Of a DNA stretch of 16,126 nucleotides, positions 4,801-16,126 are shown piece after piece (the stretch's first letter is position 1; each line of letters opens with the position of its first letter). Source of the stretch: Spirochaetaceae bacterium. GTDB taxonomy: Bacteria > Spirochaetota > Spirochaetia > SZUA-6 > Bin103. The DNA lies in the NCBI GenBank assembly GCA_026710565.1, contig JAPOQV010000010.1:1-16126 (forward strand). Reading direction: 5' to 3'. A model generated the notes under the pieces. It was given only the letters and a program-made list of their open reading frames with translations. It was not told where the DNA came from and searched no databases. The position numbers and the translations under genes were made by a program.

Positions 4801-5806
4801 GGTCCCGCCGCGGCTCATCGCGCAGCGGCCGATGGGACCGCGAGGCGCCGAACGGCTCCTGATCCTGGACCGGGCCCGGTCCGGAAGCCGGCACACGACG
4901 ATGGCGGCCCTCCCGGAGCTGCTGCCCGCAGGCTCCGTGCTGGTGCTCAACGACTCGCGCGTGCGCAAGGCGCGGGTGTTTGGAACGTCCGAGAACGGCG
5001 GCTCGGTGGAGCTGGTGTTCCTGGAAGAGATCCGGCCGGGACGCTGGCTCGCGCTGGCGCGCCGTGCCCGACGCCAGCGGGTCGGCAAACGGCTGTTCCT
5101 GCCGGAGGACGTCGAGGCCCGCGTGGTGGGGGTCCATGACGACCAGAGGGAGCTGGAGCTCAGGCCGGCGATCGGGGAGGGCTACTTCGACCGGCACGGC
5201 ACGATGCCGCTGCCGCCGTACATCGAGCGTGCGCCGGACGGCCAGGACGACGCCCGCTACCAGACCGTATACGCGCGGGAGTTCGGATCGGCGGCGGCAC
5301 CGACGGCAGGACTGCACCTCACCCGGAAGCTCCTCGGGACGATCCGCGAGCGGGGCATCGACGTCCAGTTCGTGACCCTGCACGTCGGCGCGGGCACGTT
5401 CCTGCCGATCCGCGGCGAACGCCTGGAGGACCACCGCATGCACGAGGAGTCGGTGGCGCTGAGCTGTTCGGCGGCGGCGGCCATCGAGGCGGCGCGGCGC
5501 GGCGGCCGGGACGTGGTCGCGGTCGGGACCACGGTGGTCCGCGCCCTCGAATCGCGGGCGGCCGCCGACGATGGCCGCGTCGCGGCGCTGGCTCCCGGCC
5601 GCTGGCGTACCGACCTGTTCATCCGGCCCGGACACCGATTCCGGGTGGTCACGCGCCTGTTGACCAATCTGCACACGCCCGGATCGACCCTGGTCGCCCT
5701 GGTCGCGGCCTTCGCCGGCCGCGAGCGTCTCCTGGCTGCCTACGAGGAGGCGGTGGCGCGCGGCTACCGGTTCTATTCCTACGGCGACGCCATGCTGGTC
5801 CTGTGA
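4775..5806 (+). CDS. queA: S-adenosylmethionine:tRNA ribosyltransferase-isomerase QueA
   Basis: QueA transfers and isomerises the ribosyl group of S-adenosylmethionine onto preQ1 in the tRNA wobble position, giving epoxyqueuosine. The protein is 343 aa, normal for the family. It opens VLVRDFSFEVPPRLIAQRPM, matching the family N-terminus. Further signatures are LPAGSVLVLNDSRV, MPLPPYIER, AAPTAGLHL (about 173-181), LHVGAGTFLPIR (about 202-213), TNLHTPGSTLVALVAAF and the terminal GYRFYSYGDAMLVL. GTG 4775 is chosen over upstream in-frame codons because AGGAGG lies six bases before it and the protein then starts at the conserved position. It overlaps the end of ruvB by 26 bases, so it is the distal gene of the ruv operon. 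tgt is not in the window. Confidence 0.97.
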   Translation: MLVRDFSFEVPPRLIAQRPMGPRGAERLLILDRARSGSRHTTMAALPELLPAGSVLVLNDSRVRKARVFGTSENGGSVELVFLEEIRPGRWLALARRARRQRVGKRLFLPEDVEARVVGVHDDQRELELRPAIGEGYFDRHGTMPLPPYIERAPDGQDDARYQTVYAREFGSAAAPTAGLHLTRKLLGTIRERGIDVQFVTLHVGAGTFLPIRGERLEDHRMHEESVALSCSAAAAIEAARRGGRDVVAVGTTVVRALESRAAADDGRVAALAPGRWRTDLFIRPGHRFRVVTRLLTNLHTPGSTLVALVAAFAGRERLLAAYEEAVARGYRFYSYGDAMLVL

Positions 5807-5884: not shown

Positions 5885-6511
5885 TCAGTCGAGTCCGAGG
5901 ACCGGCCACAGCCGGGCGAAGACCTCCTCCCGGCTGCCCGAGCCGTCGATCCGGTGAACGGACACCCCACGCTCCTGCAGCCGCGTGAGCGCGGCGCCGT
6001 AGGCGGCCAGAACCCGCTGCTGGGTCGCGGCCCCGTCGAATCGCTGCGGGACTCCCGCGCGATCTCGCAACCGTTCCTGGCACACCTCGACGGGGCTGGT
6101 CAGGAAGATGATGCGCGCGGGCAGTGGCGAGGAGTCGTTGACCGCCTCGATGAAGTCGGCGGGGACGTCCAGGCTCTGGTACGCCAGGCTGGAAGCGATA
6201 CAGCGATCGCTGATCACCACCTCTCCGGCAGCGTGGCGTTCCAGGACACCGCCGGCTCCGTGGCAGTGCTCCGCCCGGTCGGCGGCGAACAGCAGGGCGA
6301 ACGCCCGGCCGGACACCGGCTGGCGCGTCGCCAGCATCGAGCGGACGAGGCGACCGATCGGGCCGTCGGTGGGTTCGCGGGTCCGGAAGTGGCGGACGCC
6401 CCGCGAGCGCAGACGATTGGCGATCAGCCCCACCTGCGTCGTGGTGCCGGCGCCGTCGAGCCCCTCGACCGCGACGAATCGCGACAGGATACGGTTGCCG
6501 CTTCGGTCCAT
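5885..6511 (-). CDS. tmk: thymidylate kinase (dTMP kinase) with atypical P-loop
   Basis: Tmk phosphorylates dTMP to dTDP for DNA synthesis. It is 208 aa from ATG 6511; a GTG at 6514 directly upstream would add one residue. The family pattern is clear. The P-loop region EGLDGAGTTTQ is at 16-26, followed by REPTDGPIG, then FAADRAEH, the DR motif VVISDRCIASSLAYQS, and a LID-like RLRDRAG with several arginines. The oddity is Thr23 where nearly all P-loop kinases have the catalytic lysine (GxGKT/S becomes GAGTTT). The gene is convergent with queA and divergent from the small exported-protein gene. Start codons lie close to the 12-base repeat region, which would form the tmk leader. Family assignment is strong; catalytic activity is expected but not proven by the sequence. 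Confidence 0.92.
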   Translation of the reverse strand: MDRSGNRILSRFVAVEGLDGAGTTTQVGLIANRLRSRGVRHFRTREPTDGPIGRLVRSMLATRQPVSGRAFALLFAADRAEHCHGAGGVLERHAAGEVVISDRCIASSLAYQSLDVPADFIEAVNDSSPLPARIIFLTSPVEVCQERLRDRAGVPQRFDGAATQQRVLAAYGAALTRLQERGVSVHRIDGSGSREEVFARLWPVLGLD

Positions 6512-6522
6512 CACGCTATGAT
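6495..6522 (+). promoter_or_regulatory. candidate promoter of the exbB-exbD-tonB-tamB-bamA cluster
   Basis: TTGCCG (6495-6500) and TATGAT (6517-6522, 5/6 to consensus) are separated by 16 bases. The -35 lies within the first codons of the divergent tmk. Transcription would start near 6529, just before the series of in-frame ATG codons at 6536-6584. This is the only plausible promoter seen for the whole rightward cluster. Confidence 0.45.
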
Positions 6523-6597
6523 CGCACCGACCATCATGCCGATCATCATGCTGAGGGCCATGCCGATCATCATGCCGATTATCATGATCGCACCGAC
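6518..6597. repeat. 12-base tandem repeat with serial in-frame ATG codons, flanked by a 14-base direct repeat
   Basis: ATGATCGCACCGAC occurs at 6518-6531 and 6584-6597. Between the copies, units of the form ATGCCGATCATC repeat with a 12-base period. ATG codons fall at 6536, 6548, 6560, 6572 and 6584, all in one frame. CATGCCGATCATCATGC is present exactly at 6535-6551 and 6559-6575, and a one-mismatch copy of its core lies at 6572-6586. Translated, the units read MPII, MLRA, MPII, MPII, MIAP. The block fills the divergent gap between tmk and the exported-protein gene. A GATAAT hexamer on the minus strand (6583-6578) could be the tmk -10, but it has no good -35. Confidence 0.8.
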
Positions 6598-7081
6598 TAC
6601 CGTGACACTACGCGGGTACCACCGCCGTGTCTCCATCCTGGCGCTGCTGCTGGTCGCGATCGCGGCGCCGGGCCAGGAGGCGGAAGCGCCGGCCATCGAG
6701 GTGAGCCCGCTGCGGGTCCCCGACGTCGTCATCACCGGCGAGGACGCGATCATCATCGTTCCGCCACTTCCGGTTCTGCCCGGCGGCAGCATACCCGTGC
6801 CGCGGGTGGAGCTGCAGCCGCTGCCGTTCCTGCCGTCACCGACCTGGTGCGATCCGGTCACCGCGGGTGACGCCCCGCGCGGCGAGGTGTTCGTGGTCGA
6901 GCCGGTGTGCATGGATCTGTCCGCGCTCTCGGACCGGCTGCCGATTTTCCTGAAGCCCGGCGAACCTCCGATCCCGGAGATGCACGCCCTGGGCGTCCAT
7001 CATTCCACAACGGACTCCGCAACGGACTCCGCGACGGCTCGTGACAACATCAGCGCTCACAACAACGGGGGAGACGAGTGA
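6584..7081 (+). CDS. small exported protein of unknown function, first gene of the ExbBD-TonB-TamB-BamA cluster
   Basis: I do not recognise a family. From ATG 6584 it is 165 aa; ATGs at 6536-6572 or GTG 6602 are alternative starts. Residues 1-15 are short and basic (YHRR), and 16-29 are hydrophobic (VSILALLLVAIAAP), a typical signal peptide with cleavage near Ala-28 to Ala-35. No lipobox cysteine is present. The mature part is rich in Pro, Val and Ile (VPDVVITGED, IIIVPPLPVLPGG, VELQPLPFLPSP) and has two cysteines, Cys89 and Cys109. The C-terminus is hydrophilic, with TDSATDSATA encoded by a 12-base tandem duplication. It overlaps the exbB GTG by four bases, so the two are translationally coupled. 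That coupling suggests a periplasmic partner of the motor or of TamB/BamA; this is inference from position only. Confidence 0.7.
   Translation: MIAPTTVTLRGYHRRVSILALLLVAIAAPGQEAEAPAIEVSPLRVPDVVITGEDAIIIVPPLPVLPGGSIPVPRVELQPLPFLPSPTWCDPVTAGDAPRGEVFVVEPVCMDLSALSDRLPIFLKPGEPPIPEMHALGVHHSTTDSATDSATARDNISAHNNGGDE
7009..7032 (+). repeat. 12-base tandem duplication near the end of the exported-protein gene
   Basis: AACGGACTCCGC occurs at 7009-7020 and again at 7021-7032, followed by a partial third copy (GACGGCTC). In the gene's frame it encodes TDSA repeats. The 12-base unit preserves the frame. Confidence 0.7.
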
Positions 7082-7701
7082 TAGAGTTTTTCTTGCGCGG
7101 CGGCGTGTTCCTGTGGCCGATCGGCCTGCTGTCGGTTGCAGCCGTGTACCTGATCATCGAGCGGGCGATCTTCTTCCTGCAATCGCGACCGACGCCACAG
7201 CTTCAGCAGGCGCTGACCGCGTTCCTCGGCGGGGAGCCGCCGACGGGCCTTGAGGAGAGGCTGGGGACGAGCATCGCGCCGGAAGCGACGCTGGCCCGCG
7301 TGGGCCTGGACGCCCAGGGGGCGGAACCCGGCGATGCCCACCGCCGACTGGAGCGGTCGCTGCTGGAGGTCGTCACCGCCCTGGAGCACAACGTGGCGCC
7401 GCTCGGCAGCATCGCCAACGTTGCCACCCTCCTGGGCCTGCTGGGAACGGTGGTCGGCATGATCGCCGCCTTCATCGGCATGGGAGGAGTCGCCACGGCG
7501 GACATGGGCGGACTGACGCAGGGCATCTCGCAGGCGATGGTCACCACCGCCGCCGGGCTCGGCGTCGCCGTGCCGGCGACGTTCTTTCATCACATGTACG
7601 CCAACTACGTGAAGAGGCGCACCTCGGAACTGAACGTCACCACCTCCGAGCTGGAGTCGCTGGTGGCAGTCGTCACCGACGGTGTCGAGCACGGACGGTG
7701 A
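7078..7701 (+). CDS. exbB: MotA/TolQ/ExbB-family proton channel subunit
   Basis: ExbB forms the pentameric inner-membrane proton channel around ExbD and powers a TonB-type transducer. The protein is 207 aa. Membrane spans lie at about 9-28, 112-135 and 153-175, with the usual cytoplasmic loop between spans 1 and 2. Conserved family segments are NVATLLGLLGTVVGMIAAF (114-132) and TQGISQAMVTTAAGLGVAVP (147-166), which line the channel. The start is GTG 7078, overlapping the previous stop by four bases, with GGGGGAG at 7067-7073 as ribosome-binding site. The family also includes TolQ. The neighbouring TonB-type protein and the absence of TolA, TolB or Pal favour ExbB, but the symbol is assigned by family rather than by proven substrate. 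Confidence 0.93.
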   Translation: MIEFFLRGGVFLWPIGLLSVAAVYLIIERAIFFLQSRPTPQLQQALTAFLGGEPPTGLEERLGTSIAPEATLARVGLDAQGAEPGDAHRRLERSLLEVVTALEHNVAPLGSIANVATLLGLLGTVVGMIAAFIGMGGVATADMGGLTQGISQAMVTTAAGLGVAVPATFFHHMYANYVKRRTSELNVTTSELESLVAVVTDGVEHGR

Positions 7702-8126
7702 ACCGCCGGGGCGGCATCCGGGTCACCGGCAGCGATCTGGGGGTGTCCGCCGCCCTGCCGCTGACGGCGCTCATCGACGTCATCTTCCTGGTGGTCATCT
7801 TCTTCATGATCAACGCCGTGTTCGCGGTGACCTCGCAGATCCCGGTCGATCTTCCCGACGAACCGGGAGACGCCACCTCGGGCAACCGGGCCATCATGGT
7901 CACGATCGACGCCGCCGGCCTGATCTACGTGGACGAGGAGCCGTTCTACGAAGAGGAACTGGTCAACGTGCTGCGCGAGAAGCATGAGAACGACCCCGAT
8001 CTGGCCGTATACGTCAATGCCGGCGCCACGCTTCCGTACCAGGTCCTGATCGACGTGCTCGGCGCGGTCCGAGATGCGGGAATCGGCGCGCTGTCCCTGT
8101 TGACCGACCCCGAATCCGCGCCGTGA
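7698..8126 (+). CDS. exbD: ExbD/TolR-family motor subunit
   Basis: This is the 142-aa partner of ExbB. A short cytoplasmic N-terminus leads into one membrane helix at about 23-43. The essential proton-carrying aspartate is Asp27 in [17 protein letters not shown], matching Asp25 of E. coli ExbD. The periplasmic domain (about 48-142) has the usual pattern: a strand [17 protein letters not shown], an acidic helix, then [28 protein letters not shown]. The start is GTG 7698, overlapping the exbB stop by four bases (GTGA). The stop overlaps the next gene in the same way. All key residues are present, so the proton pathway looks functional. Confidence 0.94.
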
Positions 8127-9178
8127 GAGGCCCGCGCCGGCCGGCGTCGTTCGCCGTGTCGGTGGCCGTTCACCTCATTCTCCTGGTCCTCGCGTCGCGC
8201 CTGTCGGCGCCGACGCCGCCTGTCGAGACGGCGATCGCCGTGCAGATCGTCGCCGAGTCGCCGGGAGACAGCGCGCCGGCCGGGAGTCCGGAGCCCGCCG
8301 AGGAGGAGGCGCCGGAGCCCGCGTCGGCGGCGGCGCCGGAACCCGCACCGGAACCGGAACCAGAGCCTGAGCCCGAGCCGGAGCCCGAGGAGCCGGAACC
8401 TGAACCAGAGCCGGAACCAGAACCGGAGCCTGAACCGGAGCCCGAGCCGGAACCAGAACCGGAGCCTGAGCCTGAGCCTGAGCCCGAGCCGGAGCCGGAA
8501 CCTGAACCAGAGCCGGAACCGGAGCCGGAGCCGGAACCGGAGCCTGAGCCGACGACCGAACCGGATCCGGAGCCAACGCCGGAGCCGGAACCCGAGCCCG
8601 AACCGGAACCCGATCCGCAGCCGGAGCCGGAACCCGATCCGCCGCCGGAGCCGAAGGTCGACTTGGCGGCGCTGGCCCGGGAAGCGGCCGCCAAGGCCGC
8701 CGCGGATCTGATCCAGAGCACGCCGTATCAGGCGCCTGCGATGCCCATGACCGACGTGGACACCGGACCGGCGTGGACCTCGGATCTGTCCGTCCCCGGT
8801 CCTACCGAGGACGACACGATCGGCCTGGCCGACGCGGCGCTGAACCGCCCCATCGTGTCGTCGGGTCCCGGCGACGAGGCCGGCGGCGAGAAGCAGCGCG
8901 CCTGGAAGTGCCCGGAGGTCGTCGGCTACCTCAGGGACGGAAAGTACCCGGAGCGGATGGCGCGCGAGGGAGCCGCCGTCGCCGTGACGGTCCACATGAC
9001 GGTCAACGCGCGCGGGCTGGTCACCGACGCCTGGATCGACGAGGACGACGAGTCGGTCTTCCCGTCGATCGACATCGCCGCGCTGGCGGTGGCGCGCGCC
9101 TGCCGATTCGATGCGGAGCGCGGCGCTGCCGATACGACCTATAGGGTGCCTATCACGTTTGACCCGCGCCGGCGGTGA
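8123..9178 (+). CDS. tonB: TonB-family energy transducer with very long Pro-Glu linker
   Basis: TonB-type proteins carry force from ExbBD across the periplasm. Residues 8-27 form the membrane anchor and contain Ser13-x3-His17, the SxxxH motif TonB uses to contact ExbBD. From about residue 57 to 177 the chain is almost entirely Pro and Glu, with an uninterrupted Pro-Glu run at 91-143 (27 Pro, 26 Glu). A helical [15 protein letters not shown] segment follows. The C-terminal TonB domain spans about 264-350: [17 protein letters not shown], then [28 protein letters not shown] and YRVPITFD. Cys263 and Cys327 are the only cysteines and could form a disulfide. E. coli TonB mixes Glu-Pro with Lys-Pro; here the linker is purely acidic. 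GTG 8123 overlaps the exbD stop. The partner is unknown: no TonB-dependent receptor is in the window, and tamB and bamA follow directly. Confidence 0.9.
8327..8653 (+). repeat. hexanucleotide Pro-Glu coding repeat
   Basis: CCN-GAR hexamers encode the acidic proline linker of the TonB-family gene. The unbroken core is 8393-8551. Codons vary (CCG, CCT, CCA and CCC; GAA and GAG), but larger blocks are duplicated exactly. A 29-base block is shared by 8390-8418 and 8492-8520 (offset 102). A 26-base block is shared by 8408-8433 and 8444-8469 (offset 36). Both offsets are multiples of six, so any length change keeps the frame. Confidence 0.9.
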
Positions 9179-12100
9179 TGAGGGCTCGCGACAGGCGGCG
9201 TCTTCCCCGCGCGGCGATCATCACCATCGAGATCGCCGTGTTCGTGGGCCTGTTCGCCGCCGTCGTGTTCGGCGTGGGCTATGCGCGCGACCGCCTGGAC
9301 CGGATGGTCGGCCACCTTCGCGAGCAGGTGTCCGTCCAGGTAGCCGACCGGCTCGGGGCGCGCATACGGTACGGAACCGTCGCCCGGTCGGCGTTGCGCG
9401 CACTGCAGATCAGCGACCTGGAACTGCTCGGCACGTCCGGGGACGTGCTGCTGTCGGCGCGCCGCCTGCGGGTTCACTACTCGCTGCGCACGCTGCTGAG
9501 CACCCGCAGCGCGGTGGACGCCGTAAACCGGGTCGAGTTGACCGGCGTCGTGGCGAACCTGCGCCTGCCGCGCGACCAGGGCCCGGTGTCCGCCGCGCTC
9601 GGTGGGCTCGGCGCGTCCGCCGACGGCGCCGCGCAGGCCTCGGTCCTGCCGTGGCCGCTGACCATCGCCGATGCGCGCGTCACCGTCACCGTGGACTCCG
9701 ACCGCACCTCGGGCTCCGGCCACGTGGACCTGCGCGAGCTGTCCCTGCGGCTGGAGCCCGACGGCGACGGCGTGCGCATCGTCGACGCCCGCGCGCGCCT
9801 GGATGCCGCACTCGCCGACCTGGCCGGGCACGCCACGGAACTGGATACCAGGATCCGCATGGACGGACGCCTCGGACCGGGGGACGCCTCGCGGGCGACG
9901 GTTCGGGTCGGCGCCGTGCAGAGCAGCCTGGGCACGATACCCGCCCGCGAGGTGCAGGCCGCTTGGGACGGAACGACGCTCGGCCTGACCACGCTGGCCG
10001 ATGACCGCGGATCGGTGCTCAGGGTGTGGATCGAGCCGGAACGGCGGCTGATCCGCGCGGACCTGCAGGCCGAGCAGTTCAGCCCGATCGGTCTCGTTCG
10101 GCCGGCGGGTCCGCTGGCCCGCCTGAGTCCGTGGTTCGACACGACCGTGACCGGCACCGGTTCGGTCATCGCCGGCCCCGACGGGGTGCTCAGCTACGAC
10201 GCCGACATCGTTTTCGCCGCCCCTCCCGCGTTGCTCGGCGGGCTGCCGGGCGAGCCCGTGGAGGTCGATCTCACCGTGCGCGGCGACGGGACGACCGCAA
10301 CGGTCGCGCCCCTCGTGCTGCGTTCGACCGCCGGCGCCGCCCGGTACGAAGGCACGATCGACACCCGCACCGGAATCGCGGCCGGCCGGCTGGCCGTCAC
10401 GGACCTGGACCTGGACGGCCGGCCGATCGGGGCGAGCGCGGAGGTGGAGGCCGACCTGCAATCGATGCGGCTGAGTCTCCGCGAAGGCGTCGTGGCCATC
10501 GGCGATGCGGCGCTGAGCGAATTGGCCGGACACGTCGTCCTGCACGGTGCCGCGCCCGACGGCGGCGCGGCGGCCGCCTCTCCCTCGCTGCAGGTCGATC
10601 TGACCTGGGTCCCGCCCGTTTCAGGCGACGGAACGGCGACGGCGACCGGGGCCGTCACCCTGGGGCGGCGGCCCGTGTTCACCGGTCGCGTCGACCTCGA
10701 GAACGTCGACGCAGGCGTCCTGTACGGTCTGCTGCGCCCGGCGGACCCGGACGATGCGGAGGCATCCGACCTGCCCGACGGGCTGCTCGTCAGCGCGCGG
10801 TTGGAGGGGTCGGTCGGGACGGACCTGCTGGCGCTGGAGGTTTCGGCGGCGTCCGTGGTCCAGCGAGCCGGCCCCCTGCGGGCTCGTTTCAACGCGGTCG
10901 CCACGGAACGATCGCTGGAGATCGTCGATCTGGACCTGGTCGTCGGCGCCTCGACCCGTGCCGTCGGCAGCGCGACGGTGGACGCCGAAAGGCTGTACGC
11001 GTCCGGCCGCATCGAGCTGGACGGCGAGCAGGTGCCGGGCACGATCCGCCTGGAAACGGGTGACGGGGTCACCGTGCGCGGGCCGTGGGGGCTGATGGTG
11101 CAGTTGTGGCCCGATGAGGAACTGCGGCCGGCGGACGTTCTGGCGCGAATCGCGGCAACGGAGGCGGGCGCGCCCACGCCGTTCCGTATGAACCTGGAGG
11201 GGTATCCGGTCGCTGCGGCCGGCGAAGACGTTACCGCCGACGCCACGCTTGCCGGCATCGTGCGGCGGCCGTGGGCGTTCCTCGGCAGCCTCGGTCCGCG
11301 CGGACGCGGTGCGGATGCGCTGACGGACCTGGCCGCCGCCGGTGTCGTGCTGGCCGACTCGCGGCTCGCCCTGCGCGGCCTGACCGTCGGCGACCTCCCG
11401 GCGCGGTTGGAGATGGACTTCGGTTACGACCTCGACGTCCTCAGCGCAGACCGCATTCGCTTCGCCGTCGGCGAGCAGGACGTCACCGGCACGGGCACGC
11501 TGAACGTAACGACGCACGACGGATTCCGCGCCGCCGGGCAGGTGTTGCTGGAGAGCGGGCAGGAACGCTACGACGCCGCCGTCTCGATCGCTCCCGGGAT
11601 GCTCGACGTCGACGTCGACGTGAGTCTCCTGCGGCTGGATCGCCTCGTGCCTCTGCCGATCCCGGGCACCGCCTCCGGCCGAATCCGGATCACCGGCTCC
11701 CTCGCCGAGCCGCTGATCACCGCCGAGCTGACCTCGCATGACGTCCCGCTCGACAAGGACTACGTGACGCTCGCCTTGCAGAGCACGTACGACGGACGAC
11801 GCATCGCCATCGACGACCTGGCGGTCGACTTCCGGGACCATCGGATCCGCGGGGTGGCCGGGAGCATCGACACGAGCACGGGAACGGTGGCCGTGGGAGG
11901 ACGGTACGAAGGCGAGTACCTGGGGCAACCGCTGTCGCTCGACCTGGCCGTGACCGGGACCGCATCGTTCCCCGCGGGATCGGCAGCGGAGCGATCGCTG
12001 CCCGTGGAAGCCGCCCTGACCGTCGCGGCTAGCGCGGTGACGGTCGGCGACCTGAGCAAGCCTTCCTGGGAGGCCGCGGTCCGTTGGGAGGAGGGGGGGC

Positions 12101-13611
12101 TGGCTTTCTCGGGCGGACCTCTGGACGGCCTGTCGGGCAGGATCGCGACCGACGGAGCCTTCGAGGTCGAGGTCTCGGCGCCGCTGCCGCTGCAGGGCAG
12201 CGCCTCGGGGACGCTGTCCGGCAGCGAGCTGTCCGCGCAACTGTCGATCGCCGCGCTGGACCTGACGCTCCTCAACACCCTCATGCACACCTCGGCGGTG
12301 ACGGTCGTGTCCGGATCGGCGGCCGGAACCGTGCGCCTCCACGGCCCGATCAACGACCCCGCCATGCTCGGCGCCCTGCAGGCGACCGGCGTCGTGCTGG
12401 AGTCGTCGCTGATCCCGCAACGGGTCGGACCGCTCGCGTTTCCGGTCGCTGCCACCGACCGGGAGCTGACCGTGGGGCGCACGCGCCCGGAGCGGGGCGT
12501 CGCCCCGGTAGAGGTGCACGGGACGGTGCGATTCGGGCAATGGGCGCCGACCGCCTACGACTTCAGCGTGCAGACGGCTACCGAGGAAGGGGTCCCGGTC
12601 GAGTACCGTTTCGGGCCGATCTCCATCGCCGGGGTCGCCCTGGGAAGCGTGCAGATTACCGGCGACCGGGACGCCACCCACATCGCGGGCGCCGTCGAAG
12701 TCGACTCGGCGCGGGTGTTCATCGACAACGCCGGACGGGGCTCGCCTCCAGCCTGGGAACCGCTGACGGTCGCCCTGGAGGCCACGACCGGTCGCGGCGT
12801 CGAGCTGACCTGGCCGTCGGACGACCTGCCGATCCTGGAAGCGCTGGTCGACGTCGATCAGAACGTCTCGATCAGCTACGACGGGTTCAGCGGCGACTAC
12901 TCGGTCGTGGGTGACGTGGCGATCCGCCGCGGCGAGCTGTTCTTCTTCAACCGCACCTTCGTCCTGCGCGACGGGCTCGTGTCGTTCGCCGAGGACGGAG
13001 GACGATTCGACCCGATGGTCACCGTCCGGGCGGAGACGCGCGAGCGCAGCGCCGATGACGGCACGCTGCGGATCTACCTGGATGCGGACTCCCCCCTGAG
13101 CGCCCTCGACCCGCAGACCGTTCGGCTCAGTTCCGCGCCCCCGCGACCGCTGCCGGAGTTGCGCGCGATGCTGGGTGCGCCGTTCGCCGACGGCACGGCG
13201 GACGAAGACATCGACCTGCTGGCGGTCGCCGGCGGCATGGCAACCCAATTCGGCATGGTCCGCCCCATGGAGCGGGCGCTCCGCGATTCGCTCGGCCTGG
13301 ACCTGTTCAGCATACGCTCGCAGCTCGTGGAGAACCTGCTGCGAACCCCGCTGGGCGTCTCCAGCCCCGACCTGCTCGACAACACCGAGATCGTCGTCGG
13401 CAAGTACCTTGGCGACGGCCTGTTCCTAGAGGCGCTCGTGCGGGTAGAATCGGACACCGTGTCGCCGGGACCCGAACTGCGCACCAATCTGGAGCTCAGC
13501 CTGGAATGGGCGACGCCATTCTTCCTCTTGGAGTGGTCCCTCTTGCCGTCTCTCACCGACCCGTTCCAGACCGGCAGCGCGTTGTCGCTGTCATGGCGCT
13601 TCAACTACTGA
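9178..13611 (+). CDS. tamB: TamB/AsmA-like translocation and assembly protein (DUF490 C-terminus)
   Basis: TamB-type proteins span the periplasm as a long hydrophobic beta-groove. They are implicated in phospholipid transport to the outer membrane and in outer-membrane protein assembly together with a BamA-family partner. From ATG 9178 it is 1477 aa; a GTG at 9175 would add one residue. An N-terminal anchor lies at about 12-35 (AAIITIEIAVFVGLFAAVVFG). The middle is a long series of amphipathic beta repeats rich in Gly, Val, Asp and Leu. The DUF490 domain fills about the last 340 residues: GDVAIRRGELFFFNRTFVLRDG, then FDPMVTVRAET, LPELRAMLG and VGKYLGDGLFLEALVRV. It ends on an aromatic strand, SALSLSWRFNY. 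It contains no cysteine at all. The TGATG overlaps with tonB upstream and bamA downstream indicate coupled translation. Confidence 0.93.
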   Translation: MRARDRRRLPRAAIITIEIAVFVGLFAAVVFGVGYARDRLDRMVGHLREQVSVQVADRLGARIRYGTVARSALRALQISDLELLGTSGDVLLSARRLRVHYSLRTLLSTRSAVDAVNRVELTGVVANLRLPRDQGPVSAALGGLGASADGAAQASVLPWPLTIADARVTVTVDSDRTSGSGHVDLRELSLRLEPDGDGVRIVDARARLDAALADLAGHATELDTRIRMDGRLGPGDASRATVRVGAVQSSLGTIPAREVQAAWDGTTLGLTTLADDRGSVLRVWIEPERRLIRADLQAEQFSPIGLVRPAGPLARLSPWFDTTVTGTGSVIAGPDGVLSYDADIVFAAPPALLGGLPGEPVEVDLTVRGDGTTATVAPLVLRSTAGAARYEGTIDTRTGIAAGRLAVTDLDLDGRPIGASAEVEADLQSMRLSLREGVVAIGDAALSELAGHVVLHGAAPDGGAAAASPSLQVDLTWVPPVSGDGTATATGAVTLGRRPVFTGRVDLENVDAGVLYGLLRPADPDDAEASDLPDGLLVSARLEGSVGTDLLALEVSAASVVQRAGPLRARFNAVATERSLEIVDLDLVVGASTRAVGSATVDAERLYASGRIELDGEQVPGTIRLETGDGVTVRGPWGLMVQLWPDEELRPADVLARIAATEAGAPTPFRMNLEGYPVAAAGEDVTADATLAGIVRRPWAFLGSLGPRGRGADALTDLAAAGVVLADSRLALRGLTVGDLPARLEMDFGYDLDVLSADRIRFAVGEQDVTGTGTLNVTTHDGFRAAGQVLLESGQERYDAAVSIAPGMLDVDVDVSLLRLDRLVPLPIPGTASGRIRITGSLAEPLITAELTSHDVPLDKDYVTLALQSTYDGRRIAIDDLAVDFRDHRIRGVAGSIDTSTGTVAVGGRYEGEYLGQPLSLDLAVTGTASFPAGSAAERSLPVEAALTVAASAVTVGDLSKPSWEAAVRWEEGGLAFSGGPLDGLSGRIATDGAFEVEVSAPLPLQGSASGTLSGSELSAQLSIAALDLTLLNTLMHTSAVTVVSGSAAGTVRLHGPINDPAMLGALQATGVVLESSLIPQRVGPLAFPVAATDRELTVGRTRPERGVAPVEVHGTVRFGQWAPTAYDFSVQTATEEGVPVEYRFGPISIAGVALGSVQITGDRDATHIAGAVEVDSARVFIDNAGRGSPPAWEPLTVALEATTGRGVELTWPSDDLPILEALVDVDQNVSISYDGFSGDYSVVGDVAIRRGELFFFNRTFVLRDGLVSFAEDGGRFDPMVTVRAETRERSADDGTLRIYLDADSPLSALDPQTVRLSSAPPRPLPELRAMLGAPFADGTADEDIDLLAVAGGMATQFGMVRPMERALRDSLGLDLFSIRSQLVENLLRTPLGVSSPDLLDNTEIVVGKYLGDGLFLEALVRVESDTVSPGPELRTNLELSLEWATPFFLLEWSLLPSLTDPFQTGSALSLSWRFNY

Positions 13612-16126
13612 TGCGTCCCCGTTCGACGCCCGCGCGCATCCTCCGCGCCCTGCCCGTTGCGGCCGTACTGCTCGCCGCCGTGCCGGCCACCGCACAGGAG
13701 GCGGCGCAGCAGGGAGACGACTGGTTCTACGGCAAGCCGATCAGAGCGGTCGAGTTCGTCGGCCTGGACACGGTCGCCGAAGACGACCTCCGGCCGATCG
13801 TGGCCCCGTACCTGGGTGAACCCTTCGAGTTGGACCTGTATTTCGAGATGGAGGGCGCGCTGTACGCGACGGAGCTGTTCGAGAGTCTCGAGGCGGACGC
13901 CGCCGAGGGCGACGAGCAGCGATCGACGGTCATCGTGCGCGTGTCGGTGCGGGAGCGGCCGACCATCGACGACATCGTCATCGAGGGCGAGCGCCGGATC
14001 AGGGAAGGGCAGATCCTCAACGCGATGGCGTCGGAACCGGACTCGATCCTGAACTCGCGCCGGCTCGAGGAGGACCTCGACGCGATCCGCGACCTGTACG
14101 AGGCGGACGGGTTCGCCAGCGCACGGGTGGAGTCCACGGTCGTCCCCGACGCGTCCGCCAATCGCGTCACCGTGCGGATCACGGTCACGGAGGGCATCCG
14201 CACCACCGTGGTCGCGATCGACTTCGTCGGCAACGAGTTCGCCTCGGCAGGCACCCTGCGCAGCCAGATGGAGACCCGCGAACGGGCGCTGCTGCAACGC
14301 GGCCTGTTCTCCGAGAGCGCCTTTCAGCGCGATCTCGACAACGTCGTCTCCTACTACCGGAGCAACGGGTACGTGGACGCCTCCATCGACCGGGTTGAGC
14401 GCAGCATCGAGCACGACGCCGGCGGCGACCAGGACCTGCTCAGCCTCACCCTGCACGTGAGCGAAGGACGGACGTTCGAGTACGCGGGCACGGAGTTCGA
14501 GGGCAACAGCGTGTTCACCGACGAAGAGCTGCAGGCGCTCGTGCGCCATCGCGGCGACCGCTCGATCAACCTCGAAACCGTCGCAGCCGACTTCGCGCGG
14601 GTGCAGGACCTGTATTACGAGAACGGTTACATCTTCAACGGCTTCGATCAGGAACTGACCCGCGACGACGAGCAGGGAACGATCCGGGTACGGGTCACCA
14701 TCACCGAACGCGACGGCGCACATATCGAGAACATCACCATCGCGGGCAACGTCAAGACGCGGGAGCACGTGCTGCTCCGAGAGCTGCCGTTCGAGGTCGG
14801 CGACGTGTTCAACCGCACCGAGATCGTCCGCGGCCTGCAGAACCTGTACAACCTGCAGTATTTCACGTCGGTCGAGCCGGGCACGCCACCGGGCAGCGCC
14901 CCCGGCCTGATGGACGTCAACATCACCGTGGAGGAGGGGACGACCGCGGACATCGGCTTCGGAGCCACCTTCTCCGGCGGCGACTTCCCGCTGTCCGGAT
15001 TCGTGCGCTGGTCGGAGCGCAACTTCGCCGGACTGGGGCAGACGATCAGCGTCGACCTGTCCGCCTCGCAGCTCCGGCAGGCGCTGTCGCTCGGTTTCCG
15101 CGAGCCCTGGCTGCTCGGTCAGCCGTGGTCGGCAGGCATCACCCTCGGCGGCGAGCACGCCGTGGTTCGCGGCGTGGCGCAGGACGTCCTCCACCCGGTG
15201 TTCACCGACGCGGAGTCCGAGCACGCCGTGCCCGATCCCTACACCTCGAATGACGACTACACCTCCGGCACGTTGATACCGGACCAGTACACCATGGAGT
15301 ACGACACGTTCGCGATTTCGGCGGAAGTCTCCAGCGGCTACCGGTTCGACACCCTCCTCGGCCGCATCATCGTGCGCGGCGGATTCGGCTCCAGCCTCGA
15401 GTTCCTGGTCTACGACCCGCAGGTCAACCGGCCCTTCGACAAGACGGTCCGCGACCAGTTCGAGCGGTGGAGCGTCGTCAACAACCTGTGGACGGGCGTG
15501 GCATGGGACCGGCGCGACTTCTTCCTGAACCCCACCGAAGGCACGCTGCTCAGCCAGCGGGTCACCCTGACCGGCGGTCCGCTGTCCGGCGACCGTCACT
15601 TCATCGTGCTGGACAGTCAGGCCGAAGCCTTCGCGACGCTTTTCGCCATACCGCTGTCCGATGTCTTCGACCTGAGAGTGGTGCTCGCCGGCCACACCGG
15701 CTTCTCCGTGATCCTTCCCCAGCTCCGTGGTTGCGGTGCCGTCAACGGCAATCCGGGACTGTGCTGGGACCAGGTCCTGGGCCAGGAAGACCTGCTCATC
15801 ATCGACGGGACCAGCGTGGGCCGGGGCTGGGAGCCGGTATTCGACGGCGAGGCGCTGTGGGACAACAAGGTGGAACTGCGGGTACCGATCGACCCGCAGA
15901 TCATCTGGGGCGTGCTGTTCCTGGACGCCGCCCTGCTGTGGGACGACCGCGCCGCCATCGGCGATACCTCGCTGGACGACGTGCACTTCAGCGCCGGGTT
16001 CGGCCTTCGCTTCGCGATCCCGCAACTGCCGTTGCGGCTCTACCTCGCCAAGCCGTTCGCGTTTTACGACCGCAGGCCCCGTGATCCTCCCCGCACCCCA
16101 ACCCGCCGGCCACCAGGCCGGCCGCA
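13611..16126 (+). CDS. bamA: outer-membrane beta-barrel assembly factor BamA, extreme C-terminus cut by the window edge
   Basis: BamA inserts beta-barrel proteins into the outer membrane. The frame is open from ATG 13611 through base 16126 (838 codons, no stop). A signal peptide covers 1-28 (LPVAAVLLAAVPATA, then QE). Five POTRA domains follow at about 40-115, 116-190, 191-285, 286-365 and 366-443. POTRA-type segments such as IDDIVIEGERRIREGQIL and IENITIAGNVKTREHVLLREL are visible. The barrel starts near 446 (DIGFGATFSGGDFPLSGFVRW). Loop 6 carries Cys708 and Cys718, the same ten-residue spacing as the E. coli pair, and then VGRGW (736-740) in place of VRGF. After LRLYLAKPFAFYD the frame becomes a Pro/Arg-rich tail, and the final strand is not seen. 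ATG 13611 overlaps the tamB stop (TGATG). This tamB-bamA order is known in treponemes. Confidence 0.95.
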   Translation, partial: MRPRSTPARILRALPVAAVLLAAVPATAQEAAQQGDDWFYGKPIRAVEFVGLDTVAEDDLRPIVAPYLGEPFELDLYFEMEGALYATELFESLEADAAEGDEQRSTVIVRVSVRERPTIDDIVIEGERRIREGQILNAMASEPDSILNSRRLEEDLDAIRDLYEADGFASARVESTVVPDASANRVTVRITVTEGIRTTVVAIDFVGNEFASAGTLRSQMETRERALLQRGLFSESAFQRDLDNVVSYYRSNGYVDASIDRVERSIEHDAGGDQDLLSLTLHVSEGRTFEYAGTEFEGNSVFTDEELQALVRHRGDRSINLETVAADFARVQDLYYENGYIFNGFDQELTRDDEQGTIRVRVTITERDGAHIENITIAGNVKTREHVLLRELPFEVGDVFNRTEIVRGLQNLYNLQYFTSVEPGTPPGSAPGLMDVNITVEEGTTADIGFGATFSGGDFPLSGFVRWSERNFAGLGQTISVDLSASQLRQALSLGFREPWLLGQPWSAGITLGGEHAVVRGVAQDVLHPVFTDAESEHAVPDPYTSNDDYTSGTLIPDQYTMEYDTFAISAEVSSGYRFDTLLGRIIVRGGFGSSLEFLVYDPQVNRPFDKTVRDQFERWSVVNNLWTGVAWDRRDFFLNPTEGTLLSQRVTLTGGPLSGDRHFIVLDSQAEAFATLFAIPLSDVFDLRVVLAGHTGFSVILPQLRGCGAVNGNPGLCWDQVLGQEDLLIIDGTSVGRGWEPVFDGEALWDNKVELRVPIDPQIIWGVLFLDAALLWDDRAAIGDTSLDDVHFSAGFGLRFAIPQLPLRLYLAKPFAFYDRRPRDPPRTPTRRPPGRP
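16105..16122. other. GC hairpin at the window end
   Basis: GCCGGCC (16105-16111) and GGCCGGC (16116-16122) form a perfect 7-base stem with an ACCA loop. It lies within the open bamA frame. It could be coding coincidence in GC-rich DNA, or a terminator stem if bamA really ends earlier. The window stops four bases later, so no T-tract can be checked. Confidence 0.3.

Follow-up and report, generated by a model that had tools for sequence, protein, structure and literature searches.

The stretch of DNA analysed here (the window) comprises 16,126 nucleotides from a Spirochaetaceae bacterium (GenBank assembly GCA_026710565.1, contig JAPOQV010000010.1), and it carries a run of six genes in the same direction, encoding a small exported protein, ExbB, ExbD, TonB, TamB and BamA, all of whose frames are free of internal stops (Table 1). 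Four of the five junctions are 4-base GTGA overlaps, of which the one between tonB and tamB reads GTGATG and becomes TGATG if the ATG start is used, and the tamB-bamA junction is TGATG with a 1-base overlap; the same five junctions in a relative, locus L001, read GTGA three times and TGATG twice. Placement of the window in Spirochaetota is supported, one TamB homologue being labelled as a Spirochaetaceae MAG and L001 coming from an uncultured member of the Spirochaetia. The six-gene run with overlapping junctions that had been proposed from the sequence (the original prediction) was thus borne out, and of its description as translationally coupled the start-stop overlaps stand and nothing beyond them. 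A single candidate promoter had also been proposed, and it was indeed the sole sigma-70-like site found between positions 5700 and 9300 (0.1 expected in shuffled sequences); it also covers the start (6514) of tmk, a divergent gene on the minus strand.

Table 1. Features of the operon in the window, and positions of a second spirochaetal exbB-exbD unit in other loci
Feature	Position	Strand	Evidence
Candidate sigma-70-like promoter, TTGCCG-16-TATGAT	6495..6522	+	consensus match only
Small exported protein, 165 amino acids	6584..7081	+	open frame; near-invariant motif after signal peptide
exbB, 207 amino acids	7078..7701	+	PF01618, 92.6 bits, 2.2e-26
exbD, 142 amino acids	7698..8126	+	PF02472, 89 bits, 3.4e-25
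tonB, 351 amino acids	8123..9178	+	S-x3-H helix, Glu-Pro rod, TonB C-terminal domain; TonB_C, TIGR01352
tamB, 1478 amino acids	9175..13611	+	PF04357, 69.3 bits, 4.9e-19
bamA, runs off the window	13611..16126	+	TIGR03303, 420 bits, 4 POTRA stretches
Second unit	L104 5373-10527; L116 5103-9736; L117 5629-8144; L131 1-3548		

The window motor is of the Ton type (ExbB-ExbD-TonB). ExbB and ExbD clear their Pfam cut-offs by a wide margin and, by eye, ExbB has the LLGLLGTV stretch, including the Thr of the GTV motif, and ExbD the Asp of the transmembrane helix, while the Glu of the ExbB channel is replaced by Gln (below); against the NCBIfam equivalogs exbB, exbD, tolQ and tolR both proteins score far below the cut-offs. 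The TonB passes the cut-offs of both families tested (TonB_C 25.1 against 24.6 and TIGR01352 34.7 against 27.1) and its rod of 110 residues is 86% Pro or Glu, which would give a length of about 34 nm if it were wholly polyproline II. The structure predicted for its C-terminal domain (CTD; last 108 residues, 13 rows) had a predicted local distance difference test score (pLDDT) of 76.8 and a predicted template modelling score (pTM) of 0.67, and its PDB matches at ranks 1 to 17 were TonB-family CTDs by title (best E 2.0e-4, three matches at E <= 0.001), TolA first appearing at rank 18. An S-x3-H motif lies in the transmembrane helix of all ten tamB-linked TonBs tested, compared to neither of two TonB-like proteins of a second spirochaetal system (below) and 19 of 494 other hydrophobic segments, a background which is a rough yardstick as its hydrophobicity rule was stricter than that applied to the TonB rows and spurious frames were included. 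The TonBs of the window, L001, L033, L038 and L114 pass TIGR01352, and that of L049 passes PF03544 only, being under the TIGR01352 cut-off. Those of L037 (14.5) and L043 (20.8) fail PF03544 and are below the TIGR01352 cut-off, and those of L055 and L064 have no TIGR01352 match and are below the PF03544 cut-off too, so that these last four are putative TonBs, identified by position, helix motif and sub-threshold matches; a TonB profile built from the window missed several of the linked TonBs. Eight predicted proteins (P0029, P0031, P0033, P0034, P0038, P0039, P0040 and P0041) have a C-terminal domain up to 93% identical to the window TonB CTD, as if this domain were a shuffled cassette; some of the eight begin, by eye, like a signal peptide, and pentapeptide or Sel1 domains are present in others.

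The window's family was represented by four genomes other than its own (G001, G004, G241 and G242), in all four of which tamB is immediately preceded by a TonB domain. The run is complete in G001 and G241, although the assembled tonB of G241 falls into two reading frames (L114, 8766-9960), probably through an assembly indel, or else through a real frameshift. G242 has exbB, exbD and the beginning of a TonB-like frame at one contig end, and the last part of tonB with tamB and bamA at another, pieces which fit the same gene order broken by assembly. In G004, where no ExbD match was found, the TonB domain overlaps the start of tamB near the start of the contig. The G241 genome gave no ExbB or ExbD match besides the tamB-linked pair. 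MotA_ExbB (PF01618) matches numbered one in G241 and two each in G001, G242 and G100 (a tamB-linked genome of the wider survey below), and as all of those in G001, G241 and G242 are exbB genes, flagellar motors may be lacking in these three genomes.

ExbBD-TonB turns proton-motive force into periplasmic work, usually upon TonB-dependent receptors. In all four family genomes there was no match to Plug (PF07715), to the TonB-receptor barrel (PF00593) or to TolB_N (PF04052), and the presence of Plug in 12 of 17 chosen Spirochaetota genomes indicates that the Plug search works in this phylum. In the window itself no receptor or Tol-Pal gene was recognised, as originally proposed (the operon frames were among those searched with profiles, the remaining genes being named by eye). 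A pairing of this TonB with a TonB-dependent receptor therefore finds no support within the family, but tamB-linked genomes beyond it do have receptors. It is very improbable that the motor is instead a divergent Tol system, with peptidoglycan and constriction of the outer membrane as its targets. ExbB and ExbD do find their highest-scoring NCBIfam matches in tolQ and tolR respectively, far under cut-off, but besides the missing TolB match the CTD model has TonB before TolA among its structural matches, and the OmpA domains lie in frames longer than a usual Pal: G001, G241 and G242 have one such domain each, within frames of 1,367-1,512 residues, and G004 has two, the frames being 450 and 520 residues long. 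On these three grounds Tol-Pal was set aside.

To what extent the arrangement recurs was surveyed in 237 genomes drawn from, and confined to, Spirochaetota. TamB matches were found in 116 of these (one under the family cut-off) and ExbD matches in 209, with both in 91 and TamB only in 25 (a hand count from two lists). The surroundings of tamB were read as DNA in 75 of the 91 genomes (L001 and 74 others) and the remaining 16 were judged by coordinates, their sole ExbD match being on another contig or more than 1 megabase away. In nine of the 91, tamB is preceded at close range by an exbD gene of the same strand: five have the order exbB-exbD-tonB-tamB (G001, G019, G064, G078 and G100), three have exbD-tonB-tamB without an adjoining exbB (G015, G025 and G048) and one has exbD-tamB (G017), and bamA follows tamB in seven of the nine. 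At no fewer than four loci (in G042, G092, G113 and G118) the contig breaks off inside tamB or right at it, and linkage there could not be judged. A generous bound on chance, assuming five ExbD genes and 1.5 Mb in all 91 genomes and a same-strand position within 2 kb upstream, gives at most about 0.3 linked genomes compared to the nine observed, although it ignores shared ancestry. With this bound and the recurrence, chance adjacency was set aside, and the adjacency is not confined to the window's genome, a restriction which would have told against the original prediction. In G017 (L035, 3108-9586) the tamB frame is unusually long (1,979 residues) and exbD overlaps its start, and this genome gave one match to ExbD and none to Plug; the idea that its TamB serves as its own TonB was unsupported, as the best transmembrane segment is without S-x3-H.

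Linked loci fall on several deep branches of a BamA plus TamB tree (built without L005-L028, which are short or repeated loci, but with L002-L004 kept; the neighbourhood listing was without L002-L028). Two ExbD trees were built from the same 35 rows, with eight repeated loci left out. The first placed the window family beside the second, unlinked set, which the more careful tree did not reproduce; this latter tree needs at least four changes between linked and unlinked labels, compared to 10.1-10.2 in shuffles, and has long branches. The motor genes may be an old inheritance with losses or may have been recruited repeatedly, and either origin would imply that the genes have been kept together over long times. 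Seven unlinked loci (L031, L047, L077, L084, L089, L101 and L103) keep the order ruvB-queA-tamB-bamA without a motor, so that the motor module sits at an otherwise conserved site; in the window the operon is preceded by ruvC-ruvA-ruvB-queA (named by eye) and then tmk on the opposite strand. Downstream of bamA in L001 and L114 lie Skp/OmpH-like, ruvX-like and mutS-like genes (sequences read by eye). Farther off in the window, at 1-711 on the minus strand, an open frame resembles a PEGA domain by eye and has no NCBIfam match.

The first gene of the run bears most directly on which protein the motor serves. Thirteen homologues of the small exported protein were found (152-179 amino acids), by a search which admits 0.55-1.75 times the query length and in which longer relatives could therefore not appear. 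Right after the signal peptide the motif PD[VI]VI.G.D.IIIVPPLPVL is near-invariant in all 14 aligned rows, and the protein is more variable outside it. No Pfam match (for the part encoded from position 6671 on) and no NCBIfam match was found for the small protein, and an AlphaFold prediction (pLDDT 47.5) gave no usable fold. Short direct repeats (CCGATCATCATG type) were noted by eye at 6530-6600, upstream of and into the start of its gene, and the homologue P0042 has its start further upstream. A related pattern, [IV]PD[IMV][TV][IL][TS].[DE]D, occurs shortly after the signal peptide in the L001 small protein and also in the long proteins of L114 and L104, and was not found in the same scan of L115, L116, L117 and L131. 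Judged by sequence, the motif could be a TonB box; it is strand-like, resembles the start of the barrel-like proteins encoded upstream of related exbBD genes, and is a possible TonB contact that is new here.

Long proteins which look barrel-like by eye precede exbB in six tamB-linked loci (L114, L110 of G242, L037, L049, L055 and L064) and in four loci which are not tamB-linked (L104, L116, L117 and L131). The last four belong to a second spirochaetal unit consisting, by eye, of a barrel-like protein, exbB, exbD and a TonB-like protein; in L117 it extends only up to exbB before the contig ends, L104 and L116 have a dnaK gene close by, and in L116 and L131 the unit is followed by a HAD-like gene (by eye). 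L104 is the second exbBD set of G001, near dnaK, and ten of its frames scanned gave Pfam matches to ExbB, ExbD and, below threshold, TonB_2 only, the long protein being unmatched. The motor may instead serve the protein encoded just upstream of exbB, which in relatives would be a plug-less, TonB-linked outer-membrane barrel, with tamB and bamA mere neighbours as an outer-membrane assembly locus. In the window's lineage the TonB-binding arm would then be all that is left of the barrel, or a barrel encoded at another site would have taken its place. The shared opening pattern in L001, L114 and L104 agrees with this, as does a C-terminal aromatic residue in four of the seven barrel-like proteins examined (L037, L049, L055 and L064, but not L114, L104 and L116), and the window's lineage may have kept the arm without the barrel. 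We nevertheless consider this explanation unlikely, though it is the strongest competitor. The barrel nature of these proteins is read from sequence, with no Pfam match for that of L104; the exbD-tonB-tamB order is kept in G015, G025 and G048 though no exbB or barrel-like gene precedes exbD; and the window's lineage has a short upstream protein (in the 14 aligned rows, from a search that excluded longer relatives, and in L001), yet the motif of this protein is near-invariant and the link to tamB persists.

From this gene context we infer, with about an even chance of being right, that the Ton-type motor of this operon works on the TamB-BamA assembly module and not on a nutrient receptor. ExbB and ExbD would convert proton-motive force into motion of TonB, whose long Glu-Pro rod (about 110 residues) would span the periplasm and whose CTD would pair, through an added strand, with some periplasmic part of the module. 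As the handle, the N-terminal strand of the small exported protein, acting as an adaptor, seems likeliest; alternatively TonB may pair directly with TamB or with a POTRA domain of BamA. The pull would rearrange the bridge formed by TamB and BamA and so aid the release of barrels or the passage of lipid. The fuller proposal, of an assembly machine driven by proton-motive force in which TonB works the TamB-BamA bridge via a TonB-box adaptor and so powers barrel assembly or phospholipid export, in spirochaetes lacking TonB-dependent receptors and Tol-Pal, is more tentative and we would put it at somewhat short of even. The arrangement itself is real and recurrent and the energised module is a testable idea, in which we infer the proton coupling, the contact and the powered step.

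Several observations weigh against TamB-BamA being the client. The upstream protein is a strong competing client, as described above. Of the 91 genomes that have TamB and ExbD, 82 showed no linkage, which together with the 25 TamB genomes without an ExbD match indicates that TamB-BamA needs no such motor generally. Among the linked genomes, G017 has no tonB between exbD and tamB, and no bamA was seen beside tamB in G015 and G017 within the stretch read. Plug is present in six of the nine (G015, G019, G025, G048, G064 and G078, but not G001, G017 and G100) and each of these six holds 2-5 ExbD matches; a TolB match was found in G025 and G048, which with G002 make up the three positive genomes of 15 searched. 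Completeness of the family genomes is not given, and so the absences in them are no proof. A single clade of tamB-linked exbD was neither rejected nor shown (approximately unbiased test, p 0.07). Finally, the window ExbB reads GISQAM, with Gln at the position at which E. coli ExbB (GIAEAL) carries a functionally important Glu. The frequency of unlinked genomes and the receptors in six of nine linked ones, together with the single promoter-like site and the overlapping genes, would also suit plain co-expression, in which the assembly genes are transcribed from one promoter together with an ordinary Ton system and neither acts upon the other. This seems improbable to us, as linkage recurs on branches far apart, where the upstream neighbours differ, and the family yielded no match to an ordinary client of Ton or Tol. 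The original suggestion that the motor may drive TamB/BamA thus gains from the recurrent linkage and from the lack of a standard client match in the family, but is held back by an upstream gene which may itself encode a TonB client.

Compared to known systems, the window motor shares with ExbB-ExbD-TonB its three subunits, the S-x3-H helix and CTD fold of TonB and the Glu-Pro rod, but unlike that system it overlaps into a tamB-bamA run, begins with a small exported protein and has no TonB-dependent receptor match in the four family genomes. With Tol-Pal it shares proton-channel subunits of the same families, and it differs in its TonB-type CTD and in the lack of a TolB match in the family. The window TamB, which had 27 homologues at E <= 0.001, belongs like the TamA-TamB module to a pairing of a TamB family protein with an Omp85 partner, but here the partner is BamA instead of TamA and a candidate energy source is attached. 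In Borrelia burgdorferi a hybrid BAM-TAM has been described in which TamB binds BamA without TamA (PMC11361582, PMC13382580). The window is similar in that tamB is followed directly by bamA, an adjacency shared with L001, and the family genome G001 has one match to the Omp85 profile, in keeping with there being no separate TamA; it differs in its motor, as TonB does not occur in the main texts of those two papers, nor ExbB in that of PMC13382580, the one checked for it. Several of the smallest sampled genomes (1.0-1.3 Mb) have TamB and no ExbD match. TonB is likewise absent from the main texts of PMC12800296, PMC12045153 and PMC10353723, and in that of PMC13067283 it occurs three times, the occurrences viewed concerning transporters. 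In the open-access literature (preprints being outside the search) on TamB/BamA with Ton, ExbB/ExbD or proton motive force, no title or abstract start described such an operon, which for the Ton and spirochete terms applies to the matches listed.

The step in which TamB and BamA build the outer membrane is not known to have a direct energy supply. If TamB-BamA is indeed the client of this motor, the operon would provide a candidate direct energy source for barrel assembly or phospholipid export, and by tying a Ton motor to TamB-BamA in a family without a receptor or TolB match it names the proteins with which this may be tested.

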